Shown: positions 428-63,550 of the stretch, piece after piece
How positions within the stretch are numbered: the first letter of the stretch is position 1
Layout: each line of letters begins with the position of its first letter
DNA from: Tetradesmus obliquus
Lineage: Eukaryota > Chlorophyta > Chlorophyceae > Sphaeropleales > Scenedesmaceae
Assembly (NCBI GenBank): GCA_030272155.1
Contig: CP126203.1
Coordinates: 558,001-622,000, forward strand
DNA length: 64,000 nucleotides
Direction: 5' to 3'
Position numbers and translations under genes: made by a program
The notes under the pieces: generated by a model
Databases searched by the model: none
What the model was told of the DNA's origin: nothing
Seen by the model: the letters and a program-made list of their open reading frames with translations, nothing else

Positions 428-478
428 AATAAGCCACAGCCGCGGCGCCGCTCCGCATCCACCGCTCACTGCCAGCAG
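428..478 (-). repeat. Echo of the end of GDH exon 13 in the 3' flank
   Basis: This stretch resembles 569-620, the coding end of the last GDH exon; both contain the block GCGGCGCCGCTCCGCATCC with one or two changes. It lies just beyond the gene's stop codon, so the duplication spans the end of the last exon and 3' flank. Homology is by eye only. Confidence 0.5.
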
Positions 479-568
479 CAACGCCAGCCCACATGCAGCC
501 AGGTTGGCTCCAGCCTAGACCCTGAACCACAGCCTGAGGGCCACTGACCAGTCAAACCTAACACCTGA

Positions 569-7120
<6,552 letters not shown>

Positions 7121-9230: not shown

Positions 9231-9267
<37 letters not shown>

Positions 9268-9875: not shown

Positions 9876-9913
<38 letters not shown>

Positions 9914-12900
9914 CCTGCAGCTGCTGCAGCAACTGCAGCAGCACCATCACCATCTCCTGCAGCAGCAGCAATGCCAGTGGCAACCACAGCGGTGGCCTCA
10001 CCAGCACCAGCAGCGACACCTGCTACAAATAACACTGCATCAAAGCAGACGACGGCCGCTGCCACGCCAGCCGCAGCCACCACAGCAGCAGCTACACCTG
10101 CAGCAGCAGCAGCAACAGCAGCAACGAGCGCTTTTGATCCCGAGTATGTAGCCAAGCTACGCAAGGCTGTTGAGAAGCCAATCAATGTGCTGATCATGAC
10201 TGGGGTGTTCTGGACCATCACTTCGAAGTCGACGGAGAACTGCTCTGTGGATGGCGTGCCGCTGAAGTGCAACATCTGGCAGGACCAGTCAGAGGTGAGC
10301 ATGAGTGCAAAAGAGAGGGACTCTGTTACATGGTAACACGTGTTGGACTGTTTACAGATGTGGTTTTGACTAGACTCATCATGATGAGGCATGGTGCTGT
10401 GCGGTCTGTTGTTGCAGTTGTTGTTTGCGTGCGTTGCATCAAGGTGCGCGTGGGGTCAGCCGCAGTGCGTTGTGGCTGCAGGTGTTGGGACAGTCTGTTT
10501 TGCAGTGTTACAGCTAGCTTGCAGCTGGGTGATATCAGCGGCGTGGCGTGACATGCTTGCAGGAAAGGGTGTCAAGCAGTGGCTTGCAGGACTGGTTTTG
10601 TCAAGGCAGCTGCGTCGTGTTGAAGTGATCACTTGCAGGGGTCCTTGGCTTGCTGGGCATGCAGGGCCAGCGGCACAGCTGCAGTGCTGTGACCGCGGCG
10701 TCCGTGGCAGTAGCCCAAAGTGTTCTTCCATGCTACGCCTGCTGTTAGGCAGCGTCTTCTAAACGACGTTTCACCCTTTGTTGGTATTGTCCGCAGGAGC
10801 ACCTGGTCGCAGCGGCACACAGTACAACCGTGCGTCTGTTGCAGCATCCTGCCGATTTCAACGTGATTTCTGTGCTGAGCTTGCTGTTTCGCATATGAAC
10901 TTGCTGTGGTCGCGACTCTCACCTTCGCAGGAGCACCTCAATGCAGCAGACGCGCTGTACTACCATGTGCCGTCCTTCAGCGGCGTGCCAATGAAGAAGC
11001 GCCACCCCAATCAGCTGCGCCTGAGCACCCATTCCTGATACATTCCTATGCTGAACTTGCGGTTGTTTTTTCTTCTTTATTGATTGCAGGAGCACTTGAA
11101 CGCAGCGGACGCGCTGTACTACCATGTGCCGTCCTTCAGCGGCGAGCCAATGAAGAAGCGCCACCCCAACCAGCTGCGCCTGGCCATGAGCTTGGAGAGT
11201 GCCAGCTACTACCAGGCACTGGATAGCCCGGAGTTCATGTGCCATTTTGATGCGGAGATGACGTACCGGCAGTGCGCGCAGGTGCGCGTGCATCTGATTA
11301 AGGCAGCGCTTGTGTGCCATGTGTTGTTTGAGCGCTTTGTGTTGTGTGTTTGTTTGAGCGGCCCAACCAGCTGCGCCTGGCCATGAGTCTTGAGAGTGCC
11401 AGCTACTACCAGGCGCTGGACTCCCCGGAGTTCATGTGTCATTCTGATGCTGAAATGACGTACCGGCAGTGCGCGCAGGTGCGTGTGCATCTGATTAAGG
11501 CAACACCACTTGTGTGCTCTGTGTTTGTTTGAGCGCTTTGTGCTGTGTGTTTGTTTGAGCGCTGTGCGCTGTGTATTTATTTGAGCGCCCCAACCAGCTA
11601 CGCCTGGCCATGAGCTTGGAGAGTGCCAGCTACTACCAGGCGCTGGATTCCCCGGAGTTCATGTGTCATTTTGATGCGGAGATGACATACCGGCAGTGCG
11701 CACAGGTGTGTGTGCATCTGATCAAGCGTTGTGTGCTGCGTGTTTGTTTAAGCGCCACCCCAACCAGCTGCGCCTGGCCATGAGCTTGGAGAGCGCCAGC
11801 TACTACCAGGCGCTGGATAGCCCGGAGTTCATGTGTCATTTTGATGCTGAAATGACGTACAGGCAGTGCGCACAGGTGGGTACTAAGGGTTTTGGGCGCT
11901 GTGTGCTTTTCATTCACTGTGGCCAGCTACTACCAGGCGCTGGATAGCCCGGAGTTCATGTGTCATTTTGATGCGGAAATGACGTACCGGCAGTGCGCGC
12001 AGGTGCGTGTGCATATGATTGGAAGGCAACGCGTGTGTGCTCTGTTTTTGTTTGAGCGCTTGTGCTGTGTGTTTGTTTGAGCGCTGTCCGCTGTGTGTTT
12101 GTTTGAGCGCCCCCACCAGCTGCGCCTGACCATGAGCGTAGAGAGTGCCAGCTACTACCAGGCACTGGATTCCCCGGAGTTCATGTGCCATTTTGATGCT
12201 GAGATGACGTACCGGCAGTGCGCACAGGTGTGTGTGCATCCGATTAAGCGTTGTGTGCTCTGTGTTTGTTTGAGCGCTTTGTGCTGTGTATTTGTTTGAG
12301 CGCTGTGCGCTGTGTGTTTGTTTGAGCCCCCCAACCAACTGCGCCCGGGCATGAGGTTGGAGAGCGCCAGCTACTACCAAGCACTGGACTCCCCGGAGTT
12401 CATGTGTCATTTTGATGCTGAAATGACGTACCGGCAGTGCGCACAGGTGGGTTTCTGTTTGTGGATCACTGCATGGCATTGTGTGTTGTATGGGGGGCTT
12501 GCTCAGGCGTTCAAAGTGCTACTTTCGTGCTGAGTTGACGGACCGGCAGTATGCGTGGGCGGCGCTGTGAGTGCGCTAAAGCAGGCGTCCAGTTTGTTGA
12601 GGTGTGACGAGGCGGGGTTGTGCTGTCAGCATGCCATCAAGTGGCATCTCAGTTATGCCATGAAGCGCAGACCTAAAGTGCTGAAGGCACCCGGCTGCTG
12701 TAGGGTCTTCAGCTTTTGCCTAGCTAGCATCTTGCGCTCGTTTGTTCTACTTTCATGATGTGCCAGCTGCCAAGGGTTTTAGGCAGTGCAGCTGAACCGC
12801 GCTTTCTGTGCCGCCCTGCTGGCTGCAGGTGACCAACTGGTACAGCCTGGAGTCATTTGATGAGCTTTTCAAGGTGAGGCAAACATCACACGGATTGAAT

Positions 12901-15739
12901 GAAAAGTTTTATGACAATGACAAAGAAATTGAGAATAGAAAAACGTTTATGAATCGTAGCACCCAAAAAAGGAGTTATCAAGTTACAAAAGCCAGGGTAA
13001 GCTGTCAGGCCACCTTCACACCTTGTCTGGCAGTGAATTCAGGGCGCCAAGTGGTCAGTCAGATATCTGCAGGTGTCGCCTACAATGCAGACGCTGCGCA
13101 GCAGCCACAGCTTCACACGAGAGGCAGTCACCAGGTCTCTACTCATGCTCAAATCAGCTGGAGGGTGCCCGGATCCACATCTCAGATGGTGCCATCACCC
13201 ACATGTAACCATACTTCTCTTTCTGGCTCTTCGGCCTCCTCTTCAACTCTGCTGCTGCCTTGCTGCTGCGGTTGCTGCTGCTGCCGCTCCTCTTGCAGTT
13301 CCCGCTCGTGCCATTCGAGGAGAAGCAGCACGCGATCGCGTACGTCAACAGCAACTGCGGCGCTGTCAGCGGCCGCAGCAGCATCATGAAGGCGCTCATG
13401 GCGCTGAACGGCAGCAAGGTGCCGGTGCACAGCCTGGGCAACTGCGACCACAACACGCCCTGGCCCAAGGGCAACCCAAACAAGCGCCAGGTCTTCAGCA
13501 AGTGAGCGTGGTTGAAACACAGACCTACGCCAGGCATGTTTGCCATGTTGGAAAGCATGTAGTCAAGTTTGAGTTGGTGTGTTTTTGTTTTTGTGGGGAT
13601 AAAGTGTGATCAGGCATGGCCGCAGCAGCATCATGAAGGCGCTCATGGCGCTGAACGGCAGCAAGGTGCCGGTGCACAGCCTGGGCAACTGCAACCACAA
13701 CACGCCCTGGCCCAAAGGGCAACCCAAACAAGCGCCAGGTCTTCAGCAAGTGAGTGAAGTGGGGGGTCTCCCTAGGTAATTTAGGGGGAGCATTGCGTCA
13801 GGCATGTCAGGGAGACCAGGTTTTAGGTTTGTAGGAAGTGTGGGGAGCTGGTTGCAGCCAGGCAGGTGTGCTTCACAATCAAGTGATGGGCCTCAGCTGT
13901 TGTCAGCAGCAAGGTGCCGGGTGCACAGCCTGGGCAACTGCAAACCCAACAAACGCCAGGTCTTCAGCAAGTGAGTGACACGGAGAGGTGATTCACGCGC
14001 TTTTCAAAAGTGAGTTTGAAATGGGGGAAGCGGGTTGCATCTGCGCAGGCCTGCTGCATTATTGAGTGGTGGGCCTCAGCTGTTGTCAGCAGCAAGGTGC
14101 CGGTGCACAACCTGCGCAACTGCGACAACAACACGCCTGGCGAAAGGCAACCCAAACAAGCGCTAGGTCTTCAGCAAGTGAGTGAGCAGGCGTGGGTTAT
14201 TCTGGTGCCCCATACTGTCGCGGGTTTGGATGGGGGTTACGCCAGGCATTTCGGGAGCAGCAGCGTGCTGTACTAATGAAAATAGCATAGCTTTGAATTG
14301 TGTTACTGAACAGCGACAATTCCAGGGTAACTTGGCAATCTTCTCAGCGGTGTCGATTGCCGAGTGACCCTGGAAGCGTCACTTTTCAGCAACTGCACCT
14401 GACTGCACGCCCCTATTGCTATATCATACTGTGCATGCATGTACAAGTTCTGTGTGATACTAAAGAACAGCCTGGCTCATGAATTGTTACACAGAAGTGA
14501 CACTTTCAAGGACACTCGGCATTTGCTTACAGTGGTAACTTCACTGTGCGTGCAGGTACAAGTTCTGCGTGACCATGGAGAACAGCCTGGCTCACGACTG
14601 CGTCACTGAGAAGCTGTGGGGCTGTGTGGTCGCTTGTGAAACTCGTTACTATCTTGCTGTGCATGGTGCGCATGCAGGTACAAGTTCTGTGTGACCATGG
14701 AGAACAGCCTGGCGCATGACGATGTTACTGAGAAGCTGTGGGACGGCCTGGCTGTGTCAGAACTCACCGCTATCCTGCTATGCATTGTTTTGTGCAGGTA
14801 CAAGTTCTGCGTGACCATGGAGAACAGCCTGGCTTGCAACTACATCGGTGCGACACTCTGTCACCATCATGTGACCTAACCAGTCAACTGTGTTTGCTTG
14901 TGTGCAGGTACAAGTTCTGCGTGACCATGGAGAACAGCCTGGCTCATGACTACGCTATTGAGAAGTGACAGTTCCAAGGACACTCGGGATTTTCTTAAAC
15001 TGGTAACTTCACTGTGTGTGTGCAGGTACAAGTTCTGCGTGACCATGGAGAACAGCCTGGCTCATGATTATGTGACTGAGAAGCTGTGGGACGGCCTGGC
15101 TGCCGGCTGCGTGCCGATCTACCTGGGCAGCCCCAGCGCGCTGCAGATGGCCCCCGATGCGAGCAGCATGATCATGTACGACCCAAAGGTAGGTGGATGC
15201 CTACCCTTGCTATGAACATTGCTATAAACATCAAAAATGTGTTGGACATTATTTGTTGTTTTCCAATCTGCATTATGGAGTGCTGCGTGCCGATCTACCT
15301 GGGCAGCCCCAGCGCGCTGCAGATGGCCCCCGAAACAAGGAGCATCATCATGTACGACCCAAAGGTAGGTGGCCCCTCACTCTTCCTGTCTATCGTAACC
15401 ATTCCTGCGTGTCCGATCTACCTCGGCAGCCCCAGCGCTCTGCAGATGGCCCCCGATGCGAGCAGCATAATCGTGTACGACCCAAAGGTAGGTGTATTCT
15501 CTCTCTTGCTTTCTATCAAAACCATTCCTGCGTGCCAATCTACCTGGGCAGCCCCAGCGCTCTGCAGATGGTGCCGGATGCGAGCATCATCATCATGTAC
15601 GACCCAAAGGTACGTTGAACATCCTTTTGGCTGTCAATTTTTCATCGACCTCTCTTTTCACCCATTGACATGACAATGACTGACGAAGCAATGGTCACCA
15701 CTGAACTGCAAGGGTATCTGGGCAGCCCCTATGAAGGTA

Positions 15740-15774
<35 letters not shown>

Positions 15775-16221
15775 ACCTTGCCTGTGACAACTGCCGGGCT
15801 GAAGCCTGTGTGCTTTGAGAACACGTCAAACACTTAGGCCATCACGCGCTCAGTATTGACACTAACACAACATCTGCTGCTGCTGCTGCTGCTGCTCCTG
15901 CTGCTGCTGCAGGGCAAGGGCAACGCGTCGACCGTTGAGCAGCTGGACGCCCTGATGCACGAGATCGGCAGCAACAAGGAGAGATACGAAAAAATGCTGG
16001 CGTGGAAGCACAACAAGGTGCGCAGCAGCTGCGTTGCATGTTACCGAAAAAAATCACAGGAGGTGGTTGTCAACCTGGCTGCCGTGTTGTGCTGATAGTA
16101 TGTGTACGCTGCAGTGATATGCTGCTTCTCTGTGTCAAAACAAATGAGGTGCTTGCAGGCCTGTGGGACCACAGCATGATTGCACACTCCATCAGCCCCG
16201 CCCCCATCCTCTGAGCAATGC

Positions 16222-16259
<38 letters not shown>

Positions 16260-16453
16260 AGGTGGAGGAGCAGCCCAGCCCGCTCTTCAAGTACCTTTGG
16301 GATGTGCGCAAGACTAGCGGGGAGTGCTTCCTGTGCCAGTTTTTAGCAAGGCACCGCGCAAACCCTAAGCCCCGCTACACCACCTGCCTCTTCAATGAGA
16401 CGTGGATGGCTGCAGCAGGGCAGGAGCTGAAGCCGCAGCCAGGCTGCGAGTAG
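8110..16453 (+). CDS. Nucleotide-sugar-transporter-like domain fused to a GT10 alpha-1,3-fucosyltransferase
   Basis: Predicted Golgi enzyme transferring fucose from GDP-fucose, probably to the N-glycan core. Exons: 8110-9194, 9637-10294, 11090-11281, 12829-12873, 13299-13501, 15026-15188, 15913-16017, 16262-16453, giving 880 aa. Residues 1-297 align by eye along the GDP-mannose-transporter class of DMT carriers; then a polar linker, a membrane segment (~337-358), a coiled-coil and Ala/Ser/Thr stem, and the GT10 catalytic part (~528-880). GT10 marks: CHFDAEMTYRQCAQ, YVNSNCG, and YKFCVTMENSLAHDYVTEKL followed by AGCVPIYLG. The YVNSNCGA, GNC and C-terminal ECFLC blocks resemble plant core FucT (FUT11/12). 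The TGA ending the first reading frame sits on a GTGAGG donor in phase 2, and the next acceptor is also phase 2, which argues for one gene. Two adjacent genes remain possible. An ATG at 9269 could begin a short alternative first exon, but it has no membrane anchor. Confidence 0.75.
9232..9265. repeat. (CAG)n tract in intron 1 of the transporter-GT10 gene
   Basis: About eleven CAG units directly after the putative donor at 9195. Here the sense strand reads CAG, the opposite polarity to the acceptor-side tracts elsewhere. Confidence 0.8.
10797..11033 (+). repeat. Two echoes of the 5' part of GT10 exon 3
   Basis: A diverged ~35-base copy at 10797 and a close copy at 10932-11033 repeat the exon 3 start (EHLNAADALYYHVPSFSG) with their GCAG acceptors. 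The second reads 35 codons and then meets a stop, so inclusion would truncate the protein. The parent exon is 11090-11281. Confidence 0.85.
11360..12446 (+). repeat. Six echoes of the 3' part of GT10 exon 3
   Basis: Copies at about 11360-11479, 11590-11706, 11757-11875, 11923-12001, 12108-12227 and 12329-12446 repeat the exon end LESASYYQALDSPEFMCHFD followed by AEMTYRQCAQ and the donor GTG. Between them lie copies of the intron start and a GTGTTTGTTTGAGCGC minisatellite. Spacing is about 165-230 bp. Coding is largely kept in each copy (only a few amino-acid changes), and each ends at an intact donor. Confidence 0.92.
13620..14178 (+). repeat. Three echoes of the 3' part of GT10 exon 5
   Basis: Copies at about 13620-13751, 13909-13972 and 14087-14178 repeat the segment coding for GSKVPVHSLGNCDHNTPW and NKRQVFSK with the following GTGAG donor. 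They become shorter and more diverged with distance from the parent exon 13299-13501. Confidence 0.9.
14437..14966 (+). repeat. Five echoes of the 5' part of GT10 exon 6
   Basis: Copies at about 14437-14482, 14556-14612, 14679-14755, 14798-14846 and 14908-14966 repeat the exon 6 start YKFCVTMENSLAHD, most with a usable GCAG acceptor. All precede the parent exon 15026-15188. Each could compete as a 3' splice site. Confidence 0.9.
15285..15610 (+). repeat. Three echoes of the 3' part of GT10 exon 6
   Basis: Copies at about 15285-15365, 15411-15489 and 15531-15610 repeat VPIYLGSPSALQMAPD and the MYDPK end with the donor GTAGGT or GTACGT. They follow the parent exon with a spacing of about 120-126 bp. 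Confidence 0.92.
15758..15852 (-). repeat. Dispersed copy of GDH exon 7 inside a GT10-gene intron
   Basis: The minus strand here matches the last part of GDH exon 7 and its donor (4660-4745) over roughly 90 bases with scattered differences; the encoded peptide is a form of [21 protein letters not shown] with an in-frame stop. Both copies abut a CTG tract. This is the only clear case in the window of an exon fragment moved to a different gene. Confidence 0.82.
16224..16261. repeat. (CTG)n tract forming the acceptor of GT10 exon 8
   Basis: Eleven or twelve CTG units run directly into CTGCAG and then the last exon. A similar tract at 15873-15912 precedes exon 7. Confidence 0.92.
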
Positions 16454-16807
16454 AAGAATCGCATATTGCGGGTTTCAACATGTTCATTCAGCCGCTCCTG
16501 TGGGGCGCGGGGCCGATGGCAACGTTGCTATGGCTTAAATGGTAACATGATGATGGTAACATGATGATGATGATTGCGGGTTTCAACATGTGATCTCATG
16601 CACTGCACATTGCATTAGTCCAGCATGTGCATCGCCTGGTGCTGGCATGGTCCCAGGCTTGTGATTACTGCATACGATAGCAGGCTGGTCATCAAATTAC
16701 CAATTGAATTATTTGATGGCGGGCTGTGGTTGGCTGGAAAGCCACGTGCATGCCATGCAGTGTCCCTCCATACGCATTGGTACAGTCTGGCATATGCTTG
16801 ATCTACA

Positions 16808-23040: not shown

Positions 23041-23092
<52 letters not shown>

Positions 23093-29377: not shown

Positions 29378-29725
29378 AGGCGTCAAACGAGGGCTTCTTG
29401 CGGTCAGCAAAGCGCACGATTAGGCCCCCGCAGCCGAGCTGCTTCACCAGTGATGCGTTGTCGATGGATTCCAGCCAAAAGGCCAGCTCCCTGCAAGCCC
29501 CAGTAGGCGTGAGTGACCTGAACACTGCAGGGCATCTGGCGGCCCGCTAAGCCCTGCTCAGGCGTCAAAGAAGGGCTTCTTGCGGTCAGCAAAGCGCACG
29601 ACCAGCCCGCCGCAGCCGAGCTGCTTCATCAGAGATGCGTTGTCGATGGAGTCCAGCCATGTGATGGCCCGTTGTGCTTGCTCCACGCTGCCATACTCCA
29701 CAAAGGCCCTAGCCTGATCAGGCCC
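29378..29725 (-). repeat. Two echoes of the last exon of the RRM gene, beyond its stop codon
   Basis: Copies at about 29378-29470 and 29568-29725 repeat the last exon, ending LGCGGLVVRFADRKKP and then a serine- or phenylalanine-containing tail with the same TGA. The second keeps the RRM segment from REQAFVEYG-like sequence onward. Both lie 3' of the parent exon 29810-29998, so they are outside the main coding model but could act as alternative ends. Confidence 0.85.
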
Positions 29726-29809
29726 AACCTCAGCCCAGCCCAGGGGTCAAAACCCCGGCTCCTGGCGGCCAGCAGGGTTTTGGGGTTCAAAGGCCCCACT
29801 GAATCCTGC

Positions 29810-41157: not shown

Positions 41158-41189
<32 letters not shown>

Positions 41190-45468: not shown

Positions 45469-48400
45469 ATCTGATTGTGAATTTTTTCAACTTCAAATAA
45501 TAGTTTGGAAGTAAGGAGTAGTATTGGTGTGAAGTTCTGCGTGTGCGAGGGGCATGGGGCGTGAAGTTTGGTGTGGAGCAGGGAAGTTCACGGTGCGAGA
45601 AGTGTGAGGTGTGTCGCGTGGCGAGTTACGTGATGCAGGCAAGGTGTGAGAAGTGTGAGGGGAGGGCGCGGCGGGGTTACACCTGCGCGGGGTTACACCT
45701 GCGCTTACGGTGGGAGGGATGTATGCTACTCTAGCTGTCTTTTGCCTGTTGCACCATCAGCTGCTGGTGTTGCGAGGGCTATGGGAAGCTCCTGGTTTCT
45801 ACCACAGCCTGCAGCACACCTGCCATTCTCTATCGCTGCTCTAGGCGTCCTTTTAAGTGCCGTAGCTGCAGTGAATGTCGTTTGCTGTTGACTGGAGTGT
45901 TTGAAGCGTCATGATGGTGCAGCGCGCAGCAAGAGGGTGGTAGTCGCTGCGTCCAGAGGTGCGGCGTCGCCACAGCTGCTGCTGCTAAGTTGCCCGTGCG
46001 TGGGGCACGCCGCGCGCGCCCGCGTTCGCGCAGTTTTGTGCTCGGTGTTTCGTTGTGTGGCATTGTGTGTGGTGGTGGTGGTGTGGTGTCTGCGTCAGGG
46101 CATGGCTGTGGAGCGTGTGCTGCGCGGCAGCTGCAACGGATTCAGGTGTGGGTTTTGGGCATGGGTTTGGGGAATCGGCTGTGGCCGCAGTAGCCGAGGC
46201 AACAGCAGCGCACCGCGTGTTGTTATGCTGTGTCAGCTGTGCCGGCTGAAGCATGCGCTGTGCTTGCTCAAGCATCAGCTGGTGTTGCTGAAATGCCAGC
46301 TGCTTTTGCGGCCAGGTCACTGGTCACAAGGACAGTGTACGTGCGTCAGTGCTTGGGTCTAGTACTATCATGCTGCGTGCAGTTCAAACCTTCCAGCTCG
46401 TTTGCTGTAAAAAACCACAGCAGAAGAGCAACAGAGAGCGAGCGGCGAGTTGTCCGTGGTGTGCCTAGTTGCAGGAGTGTCAAGGCACATATGCGCTGTG
46501 TGGCATAGTCAGAGACACACATGCTGTCTGTGCCAATCGTTGAACTGTTTGGAACAGCTTTTGACTGAGAGGCAGTAAGAGCTGGCATGCATAGCTGTTG
46601 TGCTTGGGTCTGCGCTGCATTAGGTCATGTTGCAGTTCTTTTGCGGCCAGAAGGTAATGGCGTGACAACCTGCACAGCACAGCAGGCGTGCGCGCTGGTT
46701 TACTGGCAGTGCAGTGGGTGTTGGTATTGTTGGGTGGCGCTGCTGGTGTCTGGCCCTTGTAAGCGCTGCTGTTGCACCTATTTCAATGCTGCGTGAGTGC
46801 TGCCTGTATCTGCTGTGTTTGCTGCAGCGCTGCGCTGCTTCCGTGCAGGGAGCGACAGGCGGTGCTGCTGATAGGACATCAGCGCACCAGCCAATTGTGG
46901 CTTGCAGTGGCGTTGGAGTGTGTGCGATGTTGACTGTTGTCAGCACCCAGCAATTATAGCTGCTTGCAGCAGTGGCATGCTAGTGATGAAAGCAGAGTAG
47001 TGAGGTGTTTGGAGCAGAGTTGCAGGAGGCACTGAGGACACGGTCAGAGCAAGTAGTACACATTTCATATGAGTAGAAGGGGTGCGGGGTGGCCTGTGTT
47101 GCGGCAAGCGTTCCGATGTCCTTTGTGCGTCTTCAGGTTTCTTTCTTTGCCCTGATCAGGGTTTATCATGATACCAGGCAGCGTTCAGTCATCCTGCGGG
47201 TGTATATTGGCGCCTTGCGCTCCTTGGTTGCGGCTCATCATCATGTTACCCATCAAGCCATAGCATCAACGCCATCGGCCCCGCGCTCCTTGGTTGCGGC
47301 TGTTTGGTTGCCCTGTTGGTTTTGGAATGGTGTTCACTTTGGCTGACATCCGTATGACTGCGCATCCTGCGGAGCAAAAACAGTCCTGTGTATTTGTGGT
47401 TTGCCAGCTTGATCCATTCAGTATGGTGTGACTGTACGCAAGCACCATGTTTTGCGCGGTACTCTGTAACTTACAGTACTGAGTACATGTACGTCTTGTC
47501 TTGCCCTGTGCATACTCAGCATGCCGCAAGCTGGCATATTGTGGCTAGCCATTCAGCGATGCTGCGATCAGCTCTTGTACAGGCGACGCAGACCTACGCG
47601 GCAGCAGTGGCAGGATTCACACATTAGCCGCCCCATTGAATGCTTGAGTTCAACACATAGTGACCAACAAAACGTTGCCAATATAAGCCCTGCACAAGCA
47701 CAACGGATGCAAGGGACTTCCACTGACTTCTGTGCTGCCGATATGAAGCCCGCATGCTACCCGCTTCCGCTGCGCTGTTGGTGTGCGTCCAAGGTTTTTG
47801 ATATCAGTGCCTCTGCTCGGACTGCAAACAGGCTGCTGATGCCCAAAACACACCGCTAGCTTGCTTGCTGTCTAACCACAAGTAAATACATGCACTGCTT
47901 GGCTTGCTGAATGCGGCTGCTGCTGTGCATGGCGGCAAAAGCCGAAACCACTGTGCACAAAACAAAGAAAGAAAGAGAATACCTGGACACAGCACGACAT
48001 GCCCGCGCCTGTGCCTGCACAAACACGCCCGCGCCCAACACAGCACGCATGTGCCTGCCTGGCGACGCTGACGCAGCAATGCTATACACCAAACTTGAAC
48101 CGCACACCAAGCTGAAGCGTCTTGCCCCTCGCACGACAGAAGAGAGAGAGGGAGCATGCAACAAGGACAGCCCGTCACATGAAAGAACCACGCAAAACCT
48201 GGCCGCCTGCAGCCGGACTGTGCTACGGCGTTGCAAGCAACTGCACCTCTGCACCACCCCACTCTGCCTCAGCCGCAAAGTGAACTTCAGCAGAGAAACG
48301 ATGCTTCCAAGACAGCTGAAACCAGCTTGACCCGCACAAAAAGGAACACAGCCAATGCCACGGCGACGCCCTGAAGCAATGCTGCTGCAGCTGCCGTCAA

Positions 48401-48958: not shown

Positions 48959-51900
48959 TCATGCCCGGCCATCAGACTCGCCCCTGCCCCCTGACCTACC
49001 ACCACCCCTGGGGCCACCCCTGCCTCCCCTGCCACCCTCTCCAAGCCTAGATGGTCCCCCTCCCATGCCTCCAGATGGGCCGCTGCTGCTGCCACCGCCG
49101 CCGCTGCCGCTCCTGCTGCCGTCCATGCCTCTACCCTCACCGCGGCCCTCGCCACGCGGCTTGCCCCTGCCGCCTTCTGCGTAGCCACCTGTTTTCGCAG
49201 ACAGCAGCACAACAAGAAGCAAAGCTTGAGACAAACAGTTTTGAGTTGACACATGTATCGGCCGAGTGGCCCTCGCCACACGGCTTGCCCCTGGCACCCT
49301 TCGCAGGTAACCGCCTGCACAAAAGATTACGCAAATGGATCACATCAGCATCAGCATCAGCATCCGAAGTGCCAGCCCCTGCCTCCCTCAGCGTAGCCGC
49401 CTGCACAACAAATGGGCCAAATGAATGACATCAGCAATAGAATTAGCATCCGAAGTGCCAGCCCCTGCCTCCCTCAGTGTAGCCGCCTGCATAACAGACG
49501 AGGCAAAAGGAAACATCATCAGCAATAGAATCAGCGTCCGCAGTGGCAGCCCCTGCCTTCCTCAGCGTAGCCGCCTGCTGCCGCATACACAGCACAGCAG
49601 CACAATCGCACGTGTCAGCAAAGCTTCAGACATACAGTTAGGGTTTGATCAAGTAGCAGCCTTGCAGCATGCCACGGCGGCAGCACCAACCACAGAGCAG
49701 CAAGCCAAGCTGACGCCACGGGCCCTTGCAACAACCCATCCAGCCGCCGCCAAAGGTCCGCCGCTTCTCACTGCCTCGCCTACTCCATATGCACAAAACT
49801 AGGAACTCCCTGCCGCCCCTGCCGCTGCCAGGCGTGATCATAAACGCGACACCACTCAAACAATAAGACATATCTCACCTGGCCTGCCGCCGAATGCGCC
49901 GGTGGATCCCGAGCGCCGGAACTCCCCACCCCCTGCCGCACGCCGCCCCTGCCGCCGCCAAACGAGGTCAGTATATGCAAACACTAAAGAAAAAAAAAGT
50001 ACAGCCCACCGGGCCTGCCGCCGAACGTGCCCGTGGACCCCGAGCGCCGGAACCCTCGGCCGCCCCTGCCGCAACTAAACATTGTCACAAATGCAACACA
50101 ACCAAAACAGACAAACTATAGCCCACCTGGCCTGCCGCCGAATGCGCCGGTGGACCCCGAGCGCCGGAACTCCCCGCCGCCCCTGCCGCCGCCACACGTG
50201 ATTCAGCACCAGAAACAAAACAGTTTCAAAAGCACGCACCTGGCCTGCCGCCGAATGCGCCCGTGGACCCTGAGCGCCGGTACTCTCAACCCCTCCGTCA
50301 CCAAATGTAAATCAGCACCAAAAACCAAACAGGTACTACACCCCTGGCCTGCCGCCAGATGCGCCGGTGGACCCCGAGCGCTGGAACCCCCCGCCCCCCT
50401 GCCACACGCCGCCCCTGCCGCCGCCAAACAAGGTCACTACATGCGGACACAACAACGAAATACCAGAAAGTTTTACCCACCTGGCCTGCCGCCGAACGCG
50501 CCGGTGGACCCTGAGCGCCGGAACACCCCGCCGCCCCTGCCGCCCCCACACGTGATTCAGCACCAGAAACAAAACAGTTTCAAAAGCACGCACCTGGCCT
50601 GCCGCCGAATGCGCCGGTGGACCCAGAGCGCCGGAACTCTCCGCCGCCCCTGCCGCCGCCGCGGCCGTCTCCGCGGCCGCCCATGCCAGCCGCCAGGCGC
50701 TGCACCTTGGGGATCTTTGGCAGCACAGATGCGGGCGTACCACCTAAAATCAAGCTGCGCTTCTGGTAGTCCGCTAAAGCCTGCGTGGAAGCAGCAATGC
50801 AGCACGGCAGCAAGGTTGAATTTGGGGCAGCATGGAAGCACCTTGGGGATCTTGGGCAGCACAGATGCGGGCGTACCGCCCAAGATCAGGCTGCGCTTCT
50901 GGTAGTCCGCCAGGAGCTGCACGACAACAAGGAAGAAGTGCAGCAGCGAGGTTTAGAGCAGGTTTAGAGCAGGTATTACAATTGCTGAGGCAGCACACCC
51001 CACAGGATCATACTGCACTTCCAGTAGTCAGCGAGCGCCTGCAGTCAAGCACAAAAGAGTAACACGGCCGCCCATGCCAGCCGCCAGGCGCTGCACCTTG
51101 CGGATACACTGCCGCCCATGCCAGCAGGTGCTGCTGCTGGCACCTTGGGCAGCATCGCGGCAGGCACGCCATCAAGAACGAGGCTGTGCAAGGCGCCATG
51201 CACGCCGTGAGCAGCAGCCTCCAACTCTAAGTTCAAGCGAGCCGTGTTGCATGTTATGTGTACTTGTTACTTGCCAAATATAACATGTCATATGCCCGGC
51301 CTCACCTTCTGAGCAGCAACCTCTGACTCAAAGTCAACGTATGCCGTGTTGGTGTCATGCGTGCGGCTGGGGATCACCAGGATGTGTGCAATGGGCCCAT
51401 ACACCCCAAACACTGACTGCAGCTCGTCACGTGTTGTGCTGTTGGGAATGCCACGCAGGTAAATGCCCGCAGCTTCACTGCCTGCTGACTCCCCAGAATC
51501 CTGCTGCTGCTGCTGGGGCTGCTGCTGCTGCTCGCGCGCGCCAGCGGCAGCGGCAGCAGCAGCAGCGGCGGCGACTGCAGCTGTGACTGATGCATTCTCG
51601 CTAGCAGCAGCTGCGGCTGCAGAAGAAGGCTCCGGCCAGCCAGCAGCAGCAGGCTCATCAGCAGCAGGTGCTGCTGCTGCTGCTGCTGCTGCTGTTTCTG
51701 CTGCAGCCGGGGCTGCTGCTGCTGCTGCTGCTGGCGCAGGACTGCTGCTGGTGGTGCTGCTAGCTGCAGCCGGCGCAGCGGCAGCAGCGCCTGCTGCTGC
51801 TGGTGCTGTGCGTGCTGTGCTGCTGCTTGCTGCTCCTAGGCGGCCTAACTTGACACGCTCGGCATATGACAGCGGCTGAGGCGGTGATGTGTTTGCTGGC

Positions 51901-52037: not shown

Positions 52038-52075
<38 letters not shown>

Positions 52076-54324: not shown

Positions 54325-57300
54325 TCACTCCTCGTTGTCCCCGCCCTCCTGCTCCTCGCTGCCGGGCCGGTACACATCCCGCCTCCGTGCGCTGTACTTG
54401 TCCCGAAGCTGCCTGCAGGGCAGCATCATCACCATCACGCTGACATGACAATCTCTGGAAGCAACGGCACCGTAGGCCATGCAACCCAGTGAAATGGCTC
54501 GATCAAAGACCAACGATTCACTGTGTTGCAGGCATTGCAGATATTGAAGGCAAAAACAAATCAGGCAGCAATCGTCTTGACTGGTGCTTTGAAAATCAAG
54601 AGGTACGTTGATGATCATGAGGCAGCAACCGCCATAGCAGCTCACCTGCAGGGCAGCAGGTCGCCTCGTGCATCCTGGCCCAGGAACAGAACGTAGCTGT
54701 AAGGGTGCTGCAGCGGGTCGGGGCCGTACACCTGCGGGGAAAGAACAACAGTGAAGATAGAGTTATGCAGTTTGCATGGAAGCGTAAGGCCAAAACAGGC
54801 ATCGAAATGGGCGTCAAACTTGCTCATCCTGAGTCTACTACATTTGTAATAAGCAGAAGTTCTACAGTTGTAACATACATCATGACAGCTTATTAAAACT
54901 ACTACTCACCCTTCACACAGCACTCTCATCATCATCAACACCAGCAGGATGTTGGATTGACAGACTAGAATGCTCTTGTTTTCTGTTGTATTTCCTGTTG
55001 TTTGTAGCTTCTTGTTGCTCAGCAGCCGCTGACGGCAACATTTGTTATGTTTAATGAGCAGACCTAACCCCTCCCTCCCCTTAGCTGCATTGTTGCTCAC
55101 CAGCTGCTGTCTGCACAGGAGTGTGTGGGTCGGCATGTCGCGTTCACCTTTCCTGCAAGATGAAGCTAGCAAGCATAAAGAGGCCGCAGTACAGTTTGAA
55201 CAATGCAAAGTGCCACACAAGCACCTACCTGGCCCCAGCTGGCCCCTTCATCCTCCAGCTCTGGTGCAGCCAGCAGCTCCTGCGCCACGTAGGCCACCGG
55301 CGGCTGCGCTGAGTCGTAGCTCCAGTCTGACACCTCCACCAGCAGGTGGTAGAAGGGCTGGCTGCATTGTTCATAAGTGTGCAGGCGCATAAATTGTGAA
55401 GCAGATGCAAGCATGAACTGAGGGAGCACAGTAGGAGGCAGGAGCATGTGCAGGTGTCGTAGCTCCAGTCTGACACCTCCACCAGCAAGTGGTGGAAGGG
55501 CTGGCTACAGTTTCATAGTTGGGGTGCCAAGTGCAACAGTGTTAGACCGCAAGAACCACAACACAGAGCAGATGCTTTAGCAAGGAGATTGTGCCAGTGT
55601 ATTGCAGACCCTGGCAAGCGCCTGCTGGACAGCTGAATTGAGTGTGCAACTGTAGCATCAATTCTGCTGAGCTGAACACTGACAACCAAGCAGAATGCAG
55701 CCAAACACCGCCTTTGAATGCCCACCTGAGGCCTTTCTTGAGCTCCCCTGCGTGTGCTGCCGCCTGCCATGCCTCGTCCTCGCAGCAGCCCACATCCCAG
55801 CCCACCACCACCCCCCGGTAGCCGTGCTGCCTGCAAGCCAGCAGCAGCAGCAGCAGCAAGGCTTGTTGCATGTGAGGATGACAAGATACAGATCAGACGA
55901 TGCATAACACATACTAGCAGTCAATGTCACCACCACTGAGCCAATCAGCGCACGTGTGCATCGCGCGCTGCCTCAGGCACAGCACCACCACCTGTGCAGC
56001 TGGCACTACTACACTCCCCCATAACAAAACATCGTATTCAAAACATCGCCAGCCATCGTACCTGTGCACCACGCGCTGTCCCAGGCGCAGCGCCACCACC
56101 TGAGGTGCAAGCACTACTGCACTCACGCATGAGTTATGCGGCATAACACATGTTGCTCTCGCAAACTTGCCCACATAACCGCTACTCAGCTCACCTGTGC
56201 ACCACGCGCTGCCCAAGGCGCAGCGCCACCACCTGCAGAGCAGGCAGCTGCTCCGCAGCCAAAGCTGCTGCCTGCTTGGCCTGGCGGTCCAGCGCAGCAA
56301 GCATGTCGCGCACCTTGGCTGCATCAGCGTACCTGCAGGGACAAGACCGAGGCCAGACAGCGTTAAAAGGCTGCAGGGATGGACCCGGCTATGCAGGATT
56401 ACTGTGCGGCACGCTTGGGCGTGTTGTGATGATCGTTGGCACTGAGGCGCAAGATGTGCTTGCTGTAGCAACATTGCAACCTGCCTTGCCAATCCATGCA
56501 TCTGCCGACGCTGCGCTTATTAATTGCCATGTGGCAGGTTGTGCATGGCAGTTGAGTGGCTCACATGCACACTTAACCAGAACATCGTTGATGAATTGAA
56601 TTGGCATGCACCCACCACTCCTCCTACACCGCGCGCTGCATCTCGCTGCGCAGCCTTAAGCCCTCGCTCATGGTGCCGCGCAGGTCACGCACGTCCAGGC
56701 TGGCCTGTGCTGCGCCTAGTTGCACTTCACATGCAGCTAAACCATCAAACCACATACCGCACGCTGCATCTCGCTGGCGCAAGTTGAACAAGCACAGAAA
56801 ACAACAGGCTTCTCGCTCAGCTCGGCCACCAGGCCTGGAACTTGCCGCTCCTCTTGCACCGCGCGCTCCATCTCGCTGCGCAGCCGCAGCCCCTCGCTCA
56901 TGGTGTCCCTGAGGTCCAGGCTGGCCTGTGCTGCGCCTGCTTGCACTCCACACGCAGCCAAGCCACCAAACCACACACCGCGCGCTGCACCTCGCTGGCG
57001 CAATTTCGACAAGCACACCAAACGATAGGCTTGTCGCTCAAGTACGCCGGCAGAAAAGGAACTTACCGCTCCTCCTGCACCGCACGCTGCAACTTGCTAC
57101 GAAGCCGCAGCCCCTCGCTCAAGGTGTCCCTCAAGTCCAGGCTGGCCTGTGCTGCGCCTGCTTGCACTCCACATGCAGCTAAACCTCTAAACAACACACC
57201 GCGCGCTGCATCTTGCTGCCGCAAGTTGGACAAGCACAGCGAACGACAGGGCTTCTTGCTTATGTACGCCAACACAAAAGGAACTTACCGCTCCTCCTGC

Positions 57301-58895
57301 ACTGCACGCTGCATCTCGCTGTGCAGCCTCAAGCCCTCGCTCATGGTGTCCCTCAAGTCCAGGCTGGCCTGTGCTGCGCCTAGTTGCACTTCACATGCAG
57401 CTAGACCCCCAAACCACATACCACGCGCTGCATCTCGCTGGCGCAAGTTGAACAAGCACAGAAAACAACAGGCTTCTCCCGCAGCTAAGCGACCAGAAAA
57501 CGGACTTACCGCTCCTCCTGCACAGCGCGCTGCATCTCGCTGCGGAGCCGCAGGCCCTCGCTCATGGTGTCCCTCAAATCCAGGCTGGCCTGCGCTGCGC
57601 CTGCCCCAAGAGCATCTTCTTCGCTCATGCTGGACTGCACGGACACGGCCTTGCGCTCCTGCATGTCGCGCAGCGCAAGGTCGACCTGCGCTTGCAGGAA
57701 AGGGCGGGAAAGCGGCAGCGGTGATCAGCGCTGAATACAAAGGATGCTGCGTGCGTCCTGCAGCCGCACCACACCTGCCGCAGATCAGCATGTAAACAAA
57801 AGGAAGATGCACCTGATGGTATAATACAGTTGAACCTGCTGCTCCCTCAGCTCCGGCACTGCTGCCTGGTCCACACCACACCTGATGCTCTGCCAGTCAA
57901 ACAAACTCGCCGCACAAGTTTGACCGCTGCTCACCGTTTCCCGCTTTGCCCTGATCTGCTGCGCTGCCTCGTATGCTTCATAGTTGAGCGCCCGCTGCAG
58001 TTGAGCGTCCAGCTCCAGTTGGAAGATGAAGTACACGATTTCCTCGTTGACAAGCGCGGAGCGCTCACACTCGCGCTCGCCTGCACGATCAAACGTACAC
58101 AGCCATGGATGTGATTGTTGTGTTGTCACGATCTCCAGATGTCCAAACTTCAAGTTGGATGGAGGGCAGCTGCATGGCACATTGATGGTTGCAAGGCAGG
58201 CAGCCGCACCGCTTGCGGTTGCACTGCTGTGCATGATGTGGGTTGGTGTTGATGCAGATGAATTGACAGGCAGCAGACAGGCAGGGCACTGCAGGCGCGT
58301 GTGCATGTGAAAAAAGCATGCAACTGGAACACAGTTCAACTGCGCATGCCACGACCACCAGCATTCTGGCTGCGATACTTCCGGCCACGCCGTGCCATAC
58401 AATGCATGGCTTATGCCCATGCTACTGCTGCTGTTCTGCTGCTGCTGCTGCTGCCCCCTGTTTTGAATAATACAGAAGAAGCCCCACCTGCGGATGTCCC
58501 CTGCCTACGCAGAGCCTTCCAGTTAGGACTTTTCCATGGCCATGCTTCGGTGCTGCTGCTGCTGCCGCCACTGCTGCTGCTACTGCTGTTTACTGCAACA
58601 CGTCGATGGCGTTGGTTACGCCACCGGTTCTTTGCTGCTACTGTCAGCGGCTGACTGCCTGCTGCTGTTGTAGCGTTTCTGGGCAGGGCTGCTGCTGCTG
58701 CTGTTGTTGAACGCAGGCATCCTGCAGATGCTATGCTGCAGTGTCTATGTAAAGGTAGCTGCTGTGGGTTCTGCTGACGACCGTGAATGCCCACGTGCCC
58801 TGCAGGATGGTGCAGAGCAGCAGCACAGCAGCAGGCACACTGTAGCGGATGCGAAATGATGTATGAGGGCAGGATCGCCGTCCGTGTAAGCTCAT
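54325..58895 (-). CDS. CLPF: CLPF-like UVR/YccV-domain protein, probably plastid Clp adaptor
   Basis: In Arabidopsis CLPF pairs with CLPS1 to deliver substrates to the stromal Clp protease. Exons: 58895-58841 (tentative), 58721-58488, 58080-57935, 57685-57510, 56332-56195, 55830-55726, 55361-55229, 54731-54646, 54412-54325; 386 aa if exon 1 is right. From exon 3 on the frame is exact. The N-terminus is Ser/Arg/Ala-rich with few acidic residues, like a transit peptide. ALNYEAYEAAQQIRAKRETV is a UVR motif, followed by a second helical pair (YADAAKVRDMLAALDRQ). The YccV-like domain follows: LRLGQRVVHRQHGYRGVVVG, QPFYHLLVEVSDWSY, YVAQELL, and VYGPDPLQHPYSYVLFLG. Other UVR-YccV proteins exist, so ortholog status is likely, not certain. 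The first exon uses a weak GTGTGC donor. Confidence 0.78.
55457..55508 (-). repeat. Echo of the 5' part of CLPF-like exon 7
   Basis: Repeats the segment coding for QPFHHLLVEVSDWSY ahead of the parent exon 55229-55361 in transcription order. Confidence 0.85.
55955..56110 (-). repeat. Two echoes of the 3' end of CLPF-like exon 5
   Basis: Copies at about 55955-55990 and 56060-56105 repeat VVALRLGQRVVHR-like codons and the donor. The parent exon is 56195-56332. Confidence 0.85.
56610..57400 (-). repeat. Four-unit tandem array of the 3' part of CLPF-like exon 4
   Basis: Copies begin at about 56620, 56846, 57064 and 57290 and repeat AQASLDLRDTMSEGLRLRSE and MQRAVQEER with the GTAAG donor, then ~120 bp of intron. 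Spacing is a regular ~220 bp and the parent exon (57510-57685) continues the series. Copies are about 85-95% alike by eye. Confidence 0.92.
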
Positions 58896-60150: not shown

Positions 60151-63100
60151 ATGTTGACCCAGCGCACAGCAGTTGTTTCCGGCCGTGCAGCGGCCCGCTT
60201 CGCTCCAGCGCTGCCCAGTCGTCCTGCACTGCGCTCTGTCGTGCGCCGCTTCAAGTGCGTGCGGCTAATCAGCTTGTCTTGGCTGCTGCTATTCTGCTGT
60301 ACAGCAGTGCACCTCATTTCTGGTGGCAGCTGCCACGTGAAAATGCAGCCAAACCAAGTGCATTGAGCTGTTTACAGAGCAGTAACTACTATTCAAATAT
60401 CCTTCCTTCTGACTTTTGCTGTTTGACTGTGTCCTGCAGGGAAGAAGACAACCTGCATGCGGCTATTGAGGAGGCTGCCTCCCACAAGCAGGGCAAGGTC
60501 ACTGACACCAAGCTCAGCCCAGAGCAGCTCGAGGAGGTGAGGTTTCAACATTACTCATTAGTAACCGATAATAGCTGCAGCTAGTGGCTTATAGTAGTGC
60601 ATTCTAGGGTCCCAACATGCAAGGTCAGGTCACTGACACCAAGCTCAGCCCAGAGCAGCTCGAGGAGGTGAGACAAGGCAACTGACACCTACAGCTAGCT
60701 TATGGCTGCAGCCACAGCCAGTAGCCATAGGCAGTGCTGTATCTGGCACCTGTAGCTGGTGCCCAATGCTTCTGACAGCCGAGATCAAGCTGAAACATCC
60801 CAAGGTGCAAGCTGGTGGGGATGCGGGTATCATCTCTTGCTGTGCTCCCGCCAGCTTTATTGTTGCAATATTGGCACATCCTCTCAGGGTTCTGGCCTGT
60901 GCCTGCTTTAGGTGGTGCCAGGACGCACATGCAACTGCCTTCTCTGTCTTTCAGTCATTGACAACGGTCTGAGTTTGGTGAAGCAGCTTCTGTTGTTAGT
61001 GCTGTGGGCATCCAGCCTGTCGCTCAAGCCTGTGCATTGTTGAATGCGCGGCCTGATCGACAAGCTGAATGCCGGAACTGGGCTTCATCTGTGGCTGCTG
61101 CCCACTGCATGGTGCTGGTTCCAGCTGCAGTGCAACCATAGAGAAGTGTAGCAGCAGCCATACTGTCTTTGCATGTAATGCCAAGGACAGGATACTGTTG
61201 GGCTGGGCATCACAAACAAATCAACAATCATGATGCTGCCCTAGTTTCCATTCAGCAGTACCTCTTGCAATCTCAGCGACGTGGCAAGGAGCGACGTGGC
61301 AAGGATAATGCTGGGTTTTTGGCGATGGTGCTGACTGCTGTTGCCTGCTGCTGCCCTGCGCGCTGTGCACCACCCTCTTTACCCTGTCCCCTGCAGGTGT
61401 ACCGTGCTCCTGCAGGCAAGATCAGTCCCAAGATGGCGGAAATGAGGGCAGACCTGGGCAGCGGTGAGTGTGGATGTCACAGCACAGCATTACGGTTGTG
61501 CCCGTTCCAGACTATGGGTGTGCGTGGTGTGTGCTGCACATTCAGGGCTGACCGTGTGGCTGTTCCACTGCACAGCTTATCTCACATTGGCTCTCCTGTC
61601 GCTGCACCCTCCTTGCAGCTGCCTCCGACCCTGCAGTGGCAGAGTATGCCGGCCCCCTGCAGACGCTGCAGGCCTTTGATGGCCCCATCCCTGAGACCTT
61701 CAACGGGCGGCTGTGCATGCTGGCGGTGCCTATTGCCCTGCTGGAGGAGTGGGCACACGCCAACACCATGGCGCAGCAGGTACGCCGTTATGGGATCTTT
61801 TCTGTTCTGTTTCTGTTTAGATCAGGACTGTGATGTTGGCCGGTCGCACTGCTGGAGGAGTGGTTACATGCCAACATCATGGCACAGCAGGTACGTCATA
61901 ATCCACATGATGCTAACCAAATGTTTACAGGTGTATGTAGGCTGTGCATGCTGGCCATGCCCATTGCACTGCTGGAGGAGTGGGCACACGCAAACACCAT
62001 GGCACAGCAGGTACATTGTGTGTGAACATATATCAGACTGTAGTATCGGCTGCTTGCACTGGTGGAGGAGTGGGCGAACGCCAACACCATGGCGCAGCAG
62101 GTACGTTGTGTGTAATTGTGTTTAGGGTTGACTATGAGCGCGATGTGGAGTGGAGAGGAATGAGATGTCAATATATCTTCGCATTGTACAACGTCAGGTG
62201 CACGGCAGTGCTGCGGTAGTATTATGCAACAGCAATATCATTGTTGACATTTGTGTGTCTGCAAGTCAAAGTTATGGCATTTGCTTTCAGCCGTGCACAA
62301 AAGCTTTTCAGGTTGCTACCACCCATTTCAGCAAAAACACTTGGCAGCCAGGTGCCACTGCACTTCAGAGATGGTGACGCACAGGGCCTCAGGATAGTAG
62401 TGGCATGTGGCAACCAGCCACTTGCAGCAGTGCCCACAATTGCAGCCAGTAGTTGCTGTTACAAAGAGATTGATAGATGAGTAGCACGAGTGTGATGCTT
62501 CCAGCTGCTGTGAGGTATGCTCCTCCCCCTATCAACAGACATCAATTAAGATTTTCCAGCAAATAGGCTGGCGGCAGATGAGGCTGCAGCTGCTGAAGGG
62601 CATACGCCTGTGTAACACTGGTGCAACCTATGCTCACCAGGCGGTTGAAGTTCATTTGCTGCTAACAGCGCCCAGTAAGTTGCAGCATAGCAGCTTGCTG
62701 CTAGTGCCAGAAGCGAATATGGGTGCTTATCATTGTGCTGTGTTCTGTTGCATTGCAGGTGCAGGCGCACCCGGAGCGGGTGATCGGCATCTCGCTGCTG
62801 ATCCTCATTGCCACATGCGTGCCAATGTTCAAGTGAGTTAGTATGGGGGATGGTGGATTGTAGTGTGCTGTGTGCAGCATCTTCCTACTCATCCTCATTG
62901 CTACATGCATGCCGGTCTGTGCGATTGTGGGGTGCAATTTGCCCGTCTGTGTGATTGTGCAAGTGCGATTGTGGGGTGCAAAGCTGGAAGCAATATGCAC
63001 CTGGCATGCCTGATGCATCAAAGGAGTGCAGTACCATGATGGATCAGCTGCTGCACGATGATGTCAATGCAGTACTTGCACAGCAAGTGCGACAGCCGTT

Positions 63101-63550
63101 GTGAGCAACGCGTGAAGCTGCTGCTGCTGCTGCTGCTGCTGTTGCTGCTGCTCAGGGGCTACACACGCAAGGAGCCGTTTGCCAACAGCATTTGGTCGCC
63201 CATGGCTGAGAACTGGAACGGCAGGTGGGGCACTTGTAATTATCAGTGTCAGATGATTTGCTCAAGACATCTGTGGGCTGTAGGCTTGCTTTGCTGAGCC
63301 ATGCTGGCATAATGGCCATGGTCATCTTAACGTACCGGCTGGTGCTCATTACATATCTGTACATGTGACTTCTGACAAAGTTGCTGCTGCTCTGCATTGC
63401 TGTTGTTTCAATTTGTACAGGCTGGCCATGCTGGGCTTTGCCGGCATGGTGGCAACTGAGATGATCACTGGAGTCAACGTGCTGCAGGCGTGGGGGCTGC
63501 AGCCCCTGGCCACCCTGGCATCCACTGTCAACCCCGTCACAGGCCTGTGA
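60151..63550 (+). CDS. ELIP: Early light-induced protein (ELIP), three-helix LHC-like
   Basis: Thylakoid photoprotective protein that binds pigment under high light. Seven exons, 60151-60254, 60440-60536, 61397-61463, 61619-61779, 62759-62832, 63156-63224 and 63421-63550, give 233 aa. An Arg/Ala/Ser-rich transit peptide of ~35 residues is followed by a polar stretch. Helix 1 holds the chlorophyll-binding type motif FNGRLCMLAVPIALLEEWA; helix 2 is VIGISLLILIATCVPMF; helix 3 is ENWNGRLAMLGFAGMVATEM. The pair of motifs around a plain middle helix is the ELIP pattern and is shorter than an LHC antenna protein. In helix 1 the usual Glu before xNGRxAM is replaced (PETFNGRLCM keeps a Glu two residues earlier). 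Echoes of exons 2, 4 and 5 lie in the following introns. Confidence 0.92.
60621..60667 (+). repeat. Echo of the 3' end of ELIP exon 2
   Basis: Repeats VTDTKLSPEQLEE and the GTGAG donor almost perfectly, about 130 bases after the parent exon end at 60536. Confidence 0.93.
61846..62103 (+). repeat. Three echoes of the 3' end of ELIP exon 4
   Basis: Copies at about 61846-61890, 61938-62010 and 62056-62103 repeat LLEEWAHANTMAQQ with its GTAC donor; the second also includes RLCMLAMPIA-like codons. The parent exon is 61619-61779. Confidence 0.92.
62867..62915 (+). repeat. Echo of the 3' part of ELIP exon 5
   Basis: Repeats codons for LLILIATCMP shortly after the parent exon 62759-62832; the donor is not preserved. 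Confidence 0.75.
63118..63155. repeat. (CTG)n tract forming the acceptor of ELIP exon 6
   Basis: Sense-strand CTG run with one TTG interruption, ending CTCAG at the exon 6 border. Confidence 0.9.

Follow-up and report, generated by a model that had tools for sequence, protein, structure and literature searches.

How do the introns of a green alga come to hold partial copies of the exons beside them, and why do these copies differ from the exons mainly at silent positions? The question is raised by a stretch of 64,000 nucleotides of nuclear DNA of Tetradesmus (Scenedesmus) obliquus (contig CP126203.1, positions 558,001 to 622,000; "the window" below means this whole stretch), in which an initial annotation had described exon "echoes", i.e. 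copies of an exon's 5' end with its acceptor lying upstream of the exon, and copies of its 3' end with its donor lying downstream. We give an even chance to the following explanation, which is drawn from comparing sequences: the echoes would be partial duplications spanning splice junctions, with exon and echo descended from different haplotypes that had long diverged and between which sequence has been exchanged, the echo decaying neutrally thereafter.

Layout of the echoes

Self-alignment of the window, with CAG-rich matches removed before counting (as also in the echo search, the intron-flank comparison and the phase test described below), gave 87 direct pairs less than 3 kb apart after repeat filtering, versus one distant and one inverted pair. 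A recount with a fixed search space and a different filter found 95 direct pairs, four inverted pairs and one distant pair, the direct pairs forming 33 clusters that occupy 13,461 bp or 21.0% of the window; one dinucleotide-shuffled version of the window contained no repeat pair of any type. The observation of echoes is confirmed.

Exact exons were checked, by means of T. obliquus proteins, for two of the ten genes claimed in the window, namely a glutamate dehydrogenase (GDH) gene and a fucosyltransferase-like gene (FUT). Self-trained gene finders were not used, their output having collapsed to CAG-repeat micro-exons or to an excess of tiny exons.

572-6985, minus strand: GDH gene; spliced alignment to T. 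obliquus protein P0001, 414/414 amino acids, 1 amino-acid difference
6985-6941, 6749-6669, 6390-6362, 5916-5821, 5556-5496, 5190-5119, 4805-4671, minus strand: GDH coding exons 1-7 of 13
4501-4376, 4098-3972, 2997-2843, 1784-1682, 1278-1194, 698-572, minus strand: GDH coding exons 8-13 of 13
10196-16450, plus strand: alpha-1,3-fucosyltransferase-like (GT10) gene, FUT; spliced alignment to T. obliquus protein P0121, 332/332 amino acids
10196-10294, 11090-11281, 12829-12873, 13299-13501, 15026-15188, 15913-16017, 16262-16450, plus strand: the 7 FUT coding exons

A protein query derived from the GDH exons matched T. obliquus A0A383WAP6 at 100%. FUT differs from P0121 at 6 amino acids, as counted by eye in the alignment, which suggests that P0121 comes from another strain or haplotype. 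To these two genes we added eight CCT/TCP-1 loci from elsewhere in the genome, with the frame taken from Pfam PF00118 matches, and each of the resulting 85 exons was searched against 2.5 kb per side. From a total of 96 TCP-1 matches, 84 were used and 82 lie inside the loci studied, which represent 8 of the 11 contigs with matches (C4, C8 and C11 were left out); in locus L029 one chain exon was swapped by hand for a stronger match, 269-415. Locus L023 was chosen because echoes were already visible in its match table, whereas the other seven CCT loci were not picked for echoes.

The ten genes contain 148 echoes, at 44 of the 85 exons. With the layout rule coded as an echo within 24 bp of the exon or Pfam-match end, 140 of the 148 conform (60 upstream with the exon's 5' end, 80 downstream with its 3' end) and none is reversed, as the strict rule of the initial annotation had it. 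The eight others comprise five in one locus that stop 53-61 bp short of the end of an over-long Pfam match, and three shortened fragments. No echo among the 148 is a copy of a whole exon, each carrying at most one of the exon's two splice sites. They are 23-164 bp long and 72.6-100% identical overall to their exons, they form arrays of up to seven mutually different copies (exon counted) with their own spacers, and among them are five stops and some single-base gaps. Echoes are present in nine of the ten genes and in seven of the eight CCT loci elsewhere in the genome. In the remaining CCT/TCP-1 gene, L024 (C2:2084401-2089800), which has ten exons, no echo was detectable. Apparent protein-level echoes in tRNA-synthetase and RNA polymerase matches were seen by eye and are not included in the counts. 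The idea that upstream and downstream echoes meet at a fixed point in mid-exon was dropped (permutation p 0.70).

In GDH 14 echoes are found at 5 of 13 exons, and in FUT 20 echoes at 3 of 7 exons:

2729-2802, 2548-2618, 2354-2419, 2161-2226, minus strand: four downstream echoes of the 3' end and donor of GDH exon 2997-2843; 84.8-92.4% identical, donor reached
3058-3127, minus strand: echo upstream of GDH exon 2997-2843, with its 5' end; 79.5% identical, 8 gap columns, differences 0, 0, 8 at codon positions 1, 2, 3
3742-3828, 3478-3573, 3347-3413, minus strand: three echoes downstream of GDH exon 4098-3972, with its 3' end; 87.8-91.0% identical
1531-1593, minus strand: echo downstream of GDH exon 1784-1682, with its 3' end; 77.8% identical, differences 4, 3, 7 (neutral-looking)
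1892-1946, minus strand: echo upstream of GDH exon 1784-1682, with its 5' end; 94.5% identical, intron flank also homologous (duplicated intron part visible)
4974-5030, minus strand: echo upstream of GDH exon 4805-4671, with its 5' end; 73.7% identical
842-913, 757-828 (upstream) and 435-477 (downstream), minus strand: echoes of GDH exon 698-572; 81-86% identical
10931-11023, plus strand: upstream echo of the 5' end and acceptor of FUT exon 11090-11281; 93.5% identical, acceptor AG intact
11362-11478, 11588-11705, 11750-11875, 11922-12002, 12110-12227, 12329-12446, plus strand: array of six echoes downstream of FUT exon 11090-11281, with its 3' end; 89-96% identical
12516-12550, plus strand: seventh, weak match in the array of FUT exon 11090-11281
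13618-13749, 13906-13951, 13940-13970, 14089-14177, plus strand: downstream echoes of FUT exon 13299-13501
14441-14497, 14556-14620, 14678-14754, 14798-14834, 14908-14965, plus strand: five echoes upstream of FUT exon 15026-15188, with its 5' end; 81-100% identical
15282-15364, 15405-15487, 15528-15609, plus strand: three echoes downstream of FUT exon 15026-15188, with its 3' end; 91-94% identical

Gapped alignments and alignments under 35-45 bp were excluded where the acceptor of the FUT echo at 10931-11023 was examined, and likewise from the comparisons of flanks, of silent differences within arrays, of transversions and of mosaic sites. Of the 29 echoes in GDH and FUT that extend precisely to the end of their exon, 27 have an intact splice dinucleotide. 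The canonical T. obliquus GDH and FUT proteins have every exon present once, and the geometry first proposed, with breakpoints in exon and intron, respectively, and an unchanged mRNA, appears to hold in the genes checked.

Silent differences between exons and echoes

Differences between exons and echoes number 162, 147 and 565 at codon positions 1, 2 and 3 (about 3,170 sites each), i.e. 5.1, 4.6 and 17.8%, and the ratio of position 2 to position 3 is 0.21-0.33 (bootstrap over 44 exons). By our own derivation, a ratio of about 0.59 would be expected if an echo decayed neutrally next to an exon of one lineage, the echo being hit at all positions and the exon at about 70% of them at position 3; gene conversion among the copies of a single lineage was rejected as a cause, likewise by derivation, since it should leave the ratio at about 0.5 or above. 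The bias can be seen in single arrays as well. In the FUT array at 11362-12446 the differences are mostly silent, AGC/TCC serine switches among them, and TCP-1 5' echoes compared with one another show 0, 2 and 23 differences at positions 1, 2 and 3.

Since T. obliquus gene bodies are methylated, according to the accessible text of PMC12636532, and a C-to-T change at a third position is always silent, we repeated the comparison with transversions only. The ratio of nonsynonymous to synonymous rates at position 3 was then 0.17 (0.10-0.28) between exon and echo (105 pairs) and 0.24 (0.15-0.48) between echoes (83 pairs). At non-CpG sites only, the nonsynonymous to synonymous ratio was 0.34 and 0.36, respectively. 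The silent bias is not due to CpG decay. A model-free measure, the share of differences that falls in the commonest of the three phases, is elevated in each of three sets, namely the whole window (z 9.1), the window minus GDH, FUT and an armadillo-like open reading frame (ORF; z 5.4), and 20 other stretches of the genome (z 3.8).

The age of the silent differences is nearly uniform rather than graded. Third-position divergence is 0.197, 0.148, 0.167, 0.203 and 0.207 in echoes with 0, 1, 2, 3-4 and at least 5 changes at positions 1 and 2 (114 echoes; alignments under 45 bp were excluded here and in the model comparison below), and just 3 of 86 exon-echo pairs lie below 6%. The initial annotation had taken graded divergence as a sign of a continuous process. 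The grading is there in overall identity, but at third positions divergence is barely tied to the amino-acid load, and a continuous process does not hold against a level of 15-21% whatever that load and so few pairs below 6%.

A proposed exchange between diverged haplotypes

Four models of echo history were compared by the Akaike information criterion (AIC) over the 114 echoes: pure decay gave 1099.3, constant constraint 973.3, a fixed split followed by release 956.3, and variable constraint 956.8. In the best-fit release model the silent split is fixed at 0.17 and the time of release varies. Pure decay fits far worse because the differences are strongly silent, also between echoes, and the suggestion implicit in the initial annotation that the echoes are neutral fossils does not survive this comparison. 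Neither in GDH (28 changes, p 0.15) nor in FUT (24 changes, p 0.07) do the amino-acid changes of echoes show a clear preference for less conserved sites, which together with the five stops favours decay after release.

The copies are also mosaic. All four combinations of states occur in 31 of 43 informative site pairs from 11 arrays of at least four copies; in the FUT array at 11362-12446 the figure is 20 of 28. On a coalescent tree simulated with no exchange, the incompatible share is 0.04 ± 0.05. The intron flank is homologous in 37 of 153 pairs, where its mismatch of 0.11-0.16 resembles that at position 3 and not that at positions 1 and 2, and some copies have diverged more at silent positions than in their flanks, as in a TCP-1 echo where 9 of 30 third positions are changed versus 5 of 54 flank bases. 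The FUT echo at 13618-13749 is 98.5% identical to its exon over 131 bp and has dissimilar flanks. Both this echo and the TCP-1 echo fit an exchange limited to the exon-derived part.

Under the explanation we favour, the duplication would have its two breakpoints in exon and intron, respectively. Splicing would presumably still use the full exon, leaving the mRNA unchanged. The setting would be a highly heterozygous diploid or a recombining population. A break in the exon might be repaired off the diverged homologue, with strand invasion in the exon and end joining in the intron, or an ordinary tandem duplicate might later be joined with the other haplotype's exon via crossover or gene conversion; either route would leave two functional, silently diverged versions adjoining each other, of which the echo would from then on decay neutrally, and this would account for the finding that echoes carry anything from no to many amino-acid changes while silent divergence stays nearly constant. 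Exon and echo are placed on different genomes or chromosomes because both would have to remain functional while collecting silent changes. A strain of this species, UTEX 3031, is described in the accessible text of PMC12636532, with reference to Biondi et al. 2024, as a phased diploid with extensive heterozygosity, perhaps of hybrid origin, and the genome analysed here may be one haplotype of that assembly. The DOE0152z assembly measures 208 Mb versus about 109 Mb for UTEX 393 (PMC5552973, PMC5255914), and Scenedesmus sp. NREL 46B-D3 is, in the part of its description that is accessible, likely diploid with alleles separated. That a highly heterozygous diploid T. obliquus has been published agrees with an origin from two haplotypes.

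Several observations weigh against this explanation. We infer the source of the silent differences from a single haplotype. The bias is uneven, with 17, 20 and 36 differences at the three positions in locus L030 and 8, 9 and 19 in L026; it is weaker in the class of 80-85% identity (31, 22, 45), and one FUT array has a neutral-looking 20, 27 and 36 between copies. A star-tree control also gives a high incompatible share, 0.57 ± 0.34, on about 4 pairs, and yields too few informative sites (0.07 vs 0.24 observed). Three or more states occur at 11 of 119 variable sites, which two haplotypes alone leave unexplained, and in 116 of 153 pairs, the 98.5% FUT pair included, no intron flank is homologous at z>6, an absence that simple tandem duplication of such an age would not predict. 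In a set reduced to a single echo for each side of an exon (n=57), variable constraint fits as well as release (AIC 484.1 vs 486.2); from counts alone, split with release and variable direct constraint are inseparable, and constraint fits equally well. Finally, the changed residue in GDH echoes occurs in homologues in 17 of 28 cases versus 41% at random, a mild sign of constraint; for FUT echoes the figures are 6 of 24 and 23%.

If exon and echo do come from diverged chromosomes, the introns would be a dense, readable record of one-sided or unequal recombination between them, and break repair in a highly heterozygous diploid would become directly testable. Extrapolated from ten genes, there would be thousands of natural decoy splice sites genome-wide adjoining the true ones, which would serve as a test set for splice-site choice and be a trap for gene prediction in this biofuel species.

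Alternative explanations

One may also consider that the echoes are directly useful, i.e. that some are spliced in or translated and that purifying selection acts on their amino acids and splice site, the copies dating from one older burst of duplication. This is an unlikely explanation. In its favour, the silent bias holds between two echoes as well, variable constraint is level with the best model, and use of the best partner splice site nearby would make an in-frame cassette of 16 of the 32 echoes that could be tested, versus about 11 expected, a weak excess that, together with the intact dinucleotides and the GDH residues seen in homologues, favours constraint. However, with one splice site missing from each echo most could form no cassette exon without a chance site, conserved residues are changed nearly as often as others, stops and single-base gaps occur, and the canonical GDH and FUT proteins do not contain any exon twice.

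A further reading is likewise improbable in our view: introns might hold a recombining stock of silently recoded half-exons beside about half of the exons, with sequence passing between exon and echoes. They might thus act as a reservoir of working synonymous halves, maintained by selection on any copy that functions as exon or enters the mRNA.

Slightly less probable are ordinary tandem duplications over splice junctions that arise continuously and are neutral from birth, as the initial annotation had supposed. These would account for the layout, for near-adjacent copies with homologous flanks (e.g. 1730-1871 and 1892-2030), for the unit repeat of echo against echo at 2268-2459 and 2462-2653 (95% identical), and for those arrays in which differences are even over codon positions; they do not account for the overall silent bias, for the poor fit of pure decay or for the scarcity of young exon-echo pairs.

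Assembly error is unlikely, and its specific form, in which pieces of an alternative haplotype were falsely placed beside exons, is very improbable: exon and echo do resemble two haplotypes, but the pieces are short, come in arrays of different copies with their own spacers and lie at half of the checked exons, the total size of 104.7 Mb is ordinary for the species and not above that of the short-read UTEX 393 assembly (about 108 Mb), and a gapless, telomere-to-telomere phased assembly of the species is described in the accessible text of PMC12636532.

Other repeats in the window and in the genome

Further clusters of local direct repeats lie in parts of the window with unchecked exon models, all from the self-alignment:

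19168-19729, unstranded: local direct repeat cluster
29336-30568, unstranded: local direct repeat cluster
40660-44962, unstranded: local direct repeat clusters
49144-50910, unstranded: local direct repeat clusters, one pair aligned
55313-57604, unstranded: local direct repeat clusters, one pair aligned
60481-62113, unstranded: local direct repeat clusters, one pair aligned

No repeat pair was found by self-alignment at 30.6-40.6 kb of the window, which includes the FUT8-like region, and this gene had indeed been described as free of echoes. The repeats said to lie inside the coding exon of an armadillo gene were found too: the armadillo-like single-exon ORF (767 amino acids, window 21253-23556) has a coding sequence that is an array of units of about 129 bp. 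The sole distant pair, 15751-15851 and 4645-4745 (101 bp, 89%), places a copy of the 3' end of GDH exon 4805-4671, with its donor and CTG repeat, 11 kb away and antisense in a FUT intron, which hints at templated insertion from elsewhere. The only inverted pair to pass the first filter is 16489-16555 and 47236-47302 (67 bp, 81% identical). CAG/CTG runs are very common in the introns of the window, often immediately 5' of acceptors, and may act as seeds of slippage or misalignment.

Local direct pairs were present in 15 of 20 other 10-kb stretches on all 17 contigs (repeats only, exon models unchecked), taken at fixed positions, 1 Mb on each contig and 3 Mb on C1-C3, and not drawn at random. 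Among the five without such pairs, by eye, L003, L004 and L009 have long open frames and L005 shorter ones, and in L019 a transposase-like ORF is present twice, the stretch having inverted and distant pairs.

Comparison with known systems

Tandem duplication is an accepted route of intron gain, as stated in the accessible text of PMC3443670, and in the potato RdRp gene a single duplication over an intron-exon boundary is described in the accessible part of Ma et al. 2016 (PMC4974935). The echoes resemble such cases, as far as these texts describe them, in that the duplicated segment spans the boundary and inherits splice signals; they are direct, nearby copies with exon end and splice site. 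Unlike the known cases, which are single and create a new intron, they occur at half of the checked exons, lie in existing introns, leave exon structure unchanged and are silently diverged, and GDH and FUT (two genes) align to their proteins with the echoes outside exons. Neutral pseudo-exon fossils would have even differences over codon positions, which is not the case overall, though some single arrays would pass for such fossils.

In internal or mutually exclusive exon duplication an exon is duplicated with its splice sites within one gene and its amino acids are largely kept, OGDH exon 4a/4b reportedly being an example. Here too, exon sequence is duplicated with a splice site inside one gene and the amino acids are largely kept; unlike in mutually exclusive or cassette exon duplication, 0 of 148 copies is a whole exon with acceptor and donor. 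Error-prone synthesis-dependent strand annealing, i.e. one-sided strand invasion with end joining, is predicted by our own derivation to leave a chimeric exon beside a leftover exon end and flank, the same layout; to our knowledge such partial duplications are known as single repair products, not as a genome-wide intron feature. Introner elements account for much recent intron sequence in green algae, and here too much intron sequence in a green alga would be of recent origin; unlike introners, echoes are local and derived from the host exon, and one genome query with a 330-bp echo array (window 15283-15612; common words skipped) gave matches at its own locus only. In the literature searched, which did not extend to most subscription papers, we came across no description of half-exon copies on both sides of exons throughout a genome, nor of such a silent bias. 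Boundary-spanning duplication is already documented as a single event; in T. obliquus the echoes are two-sided and lie at about half of the exons checked.

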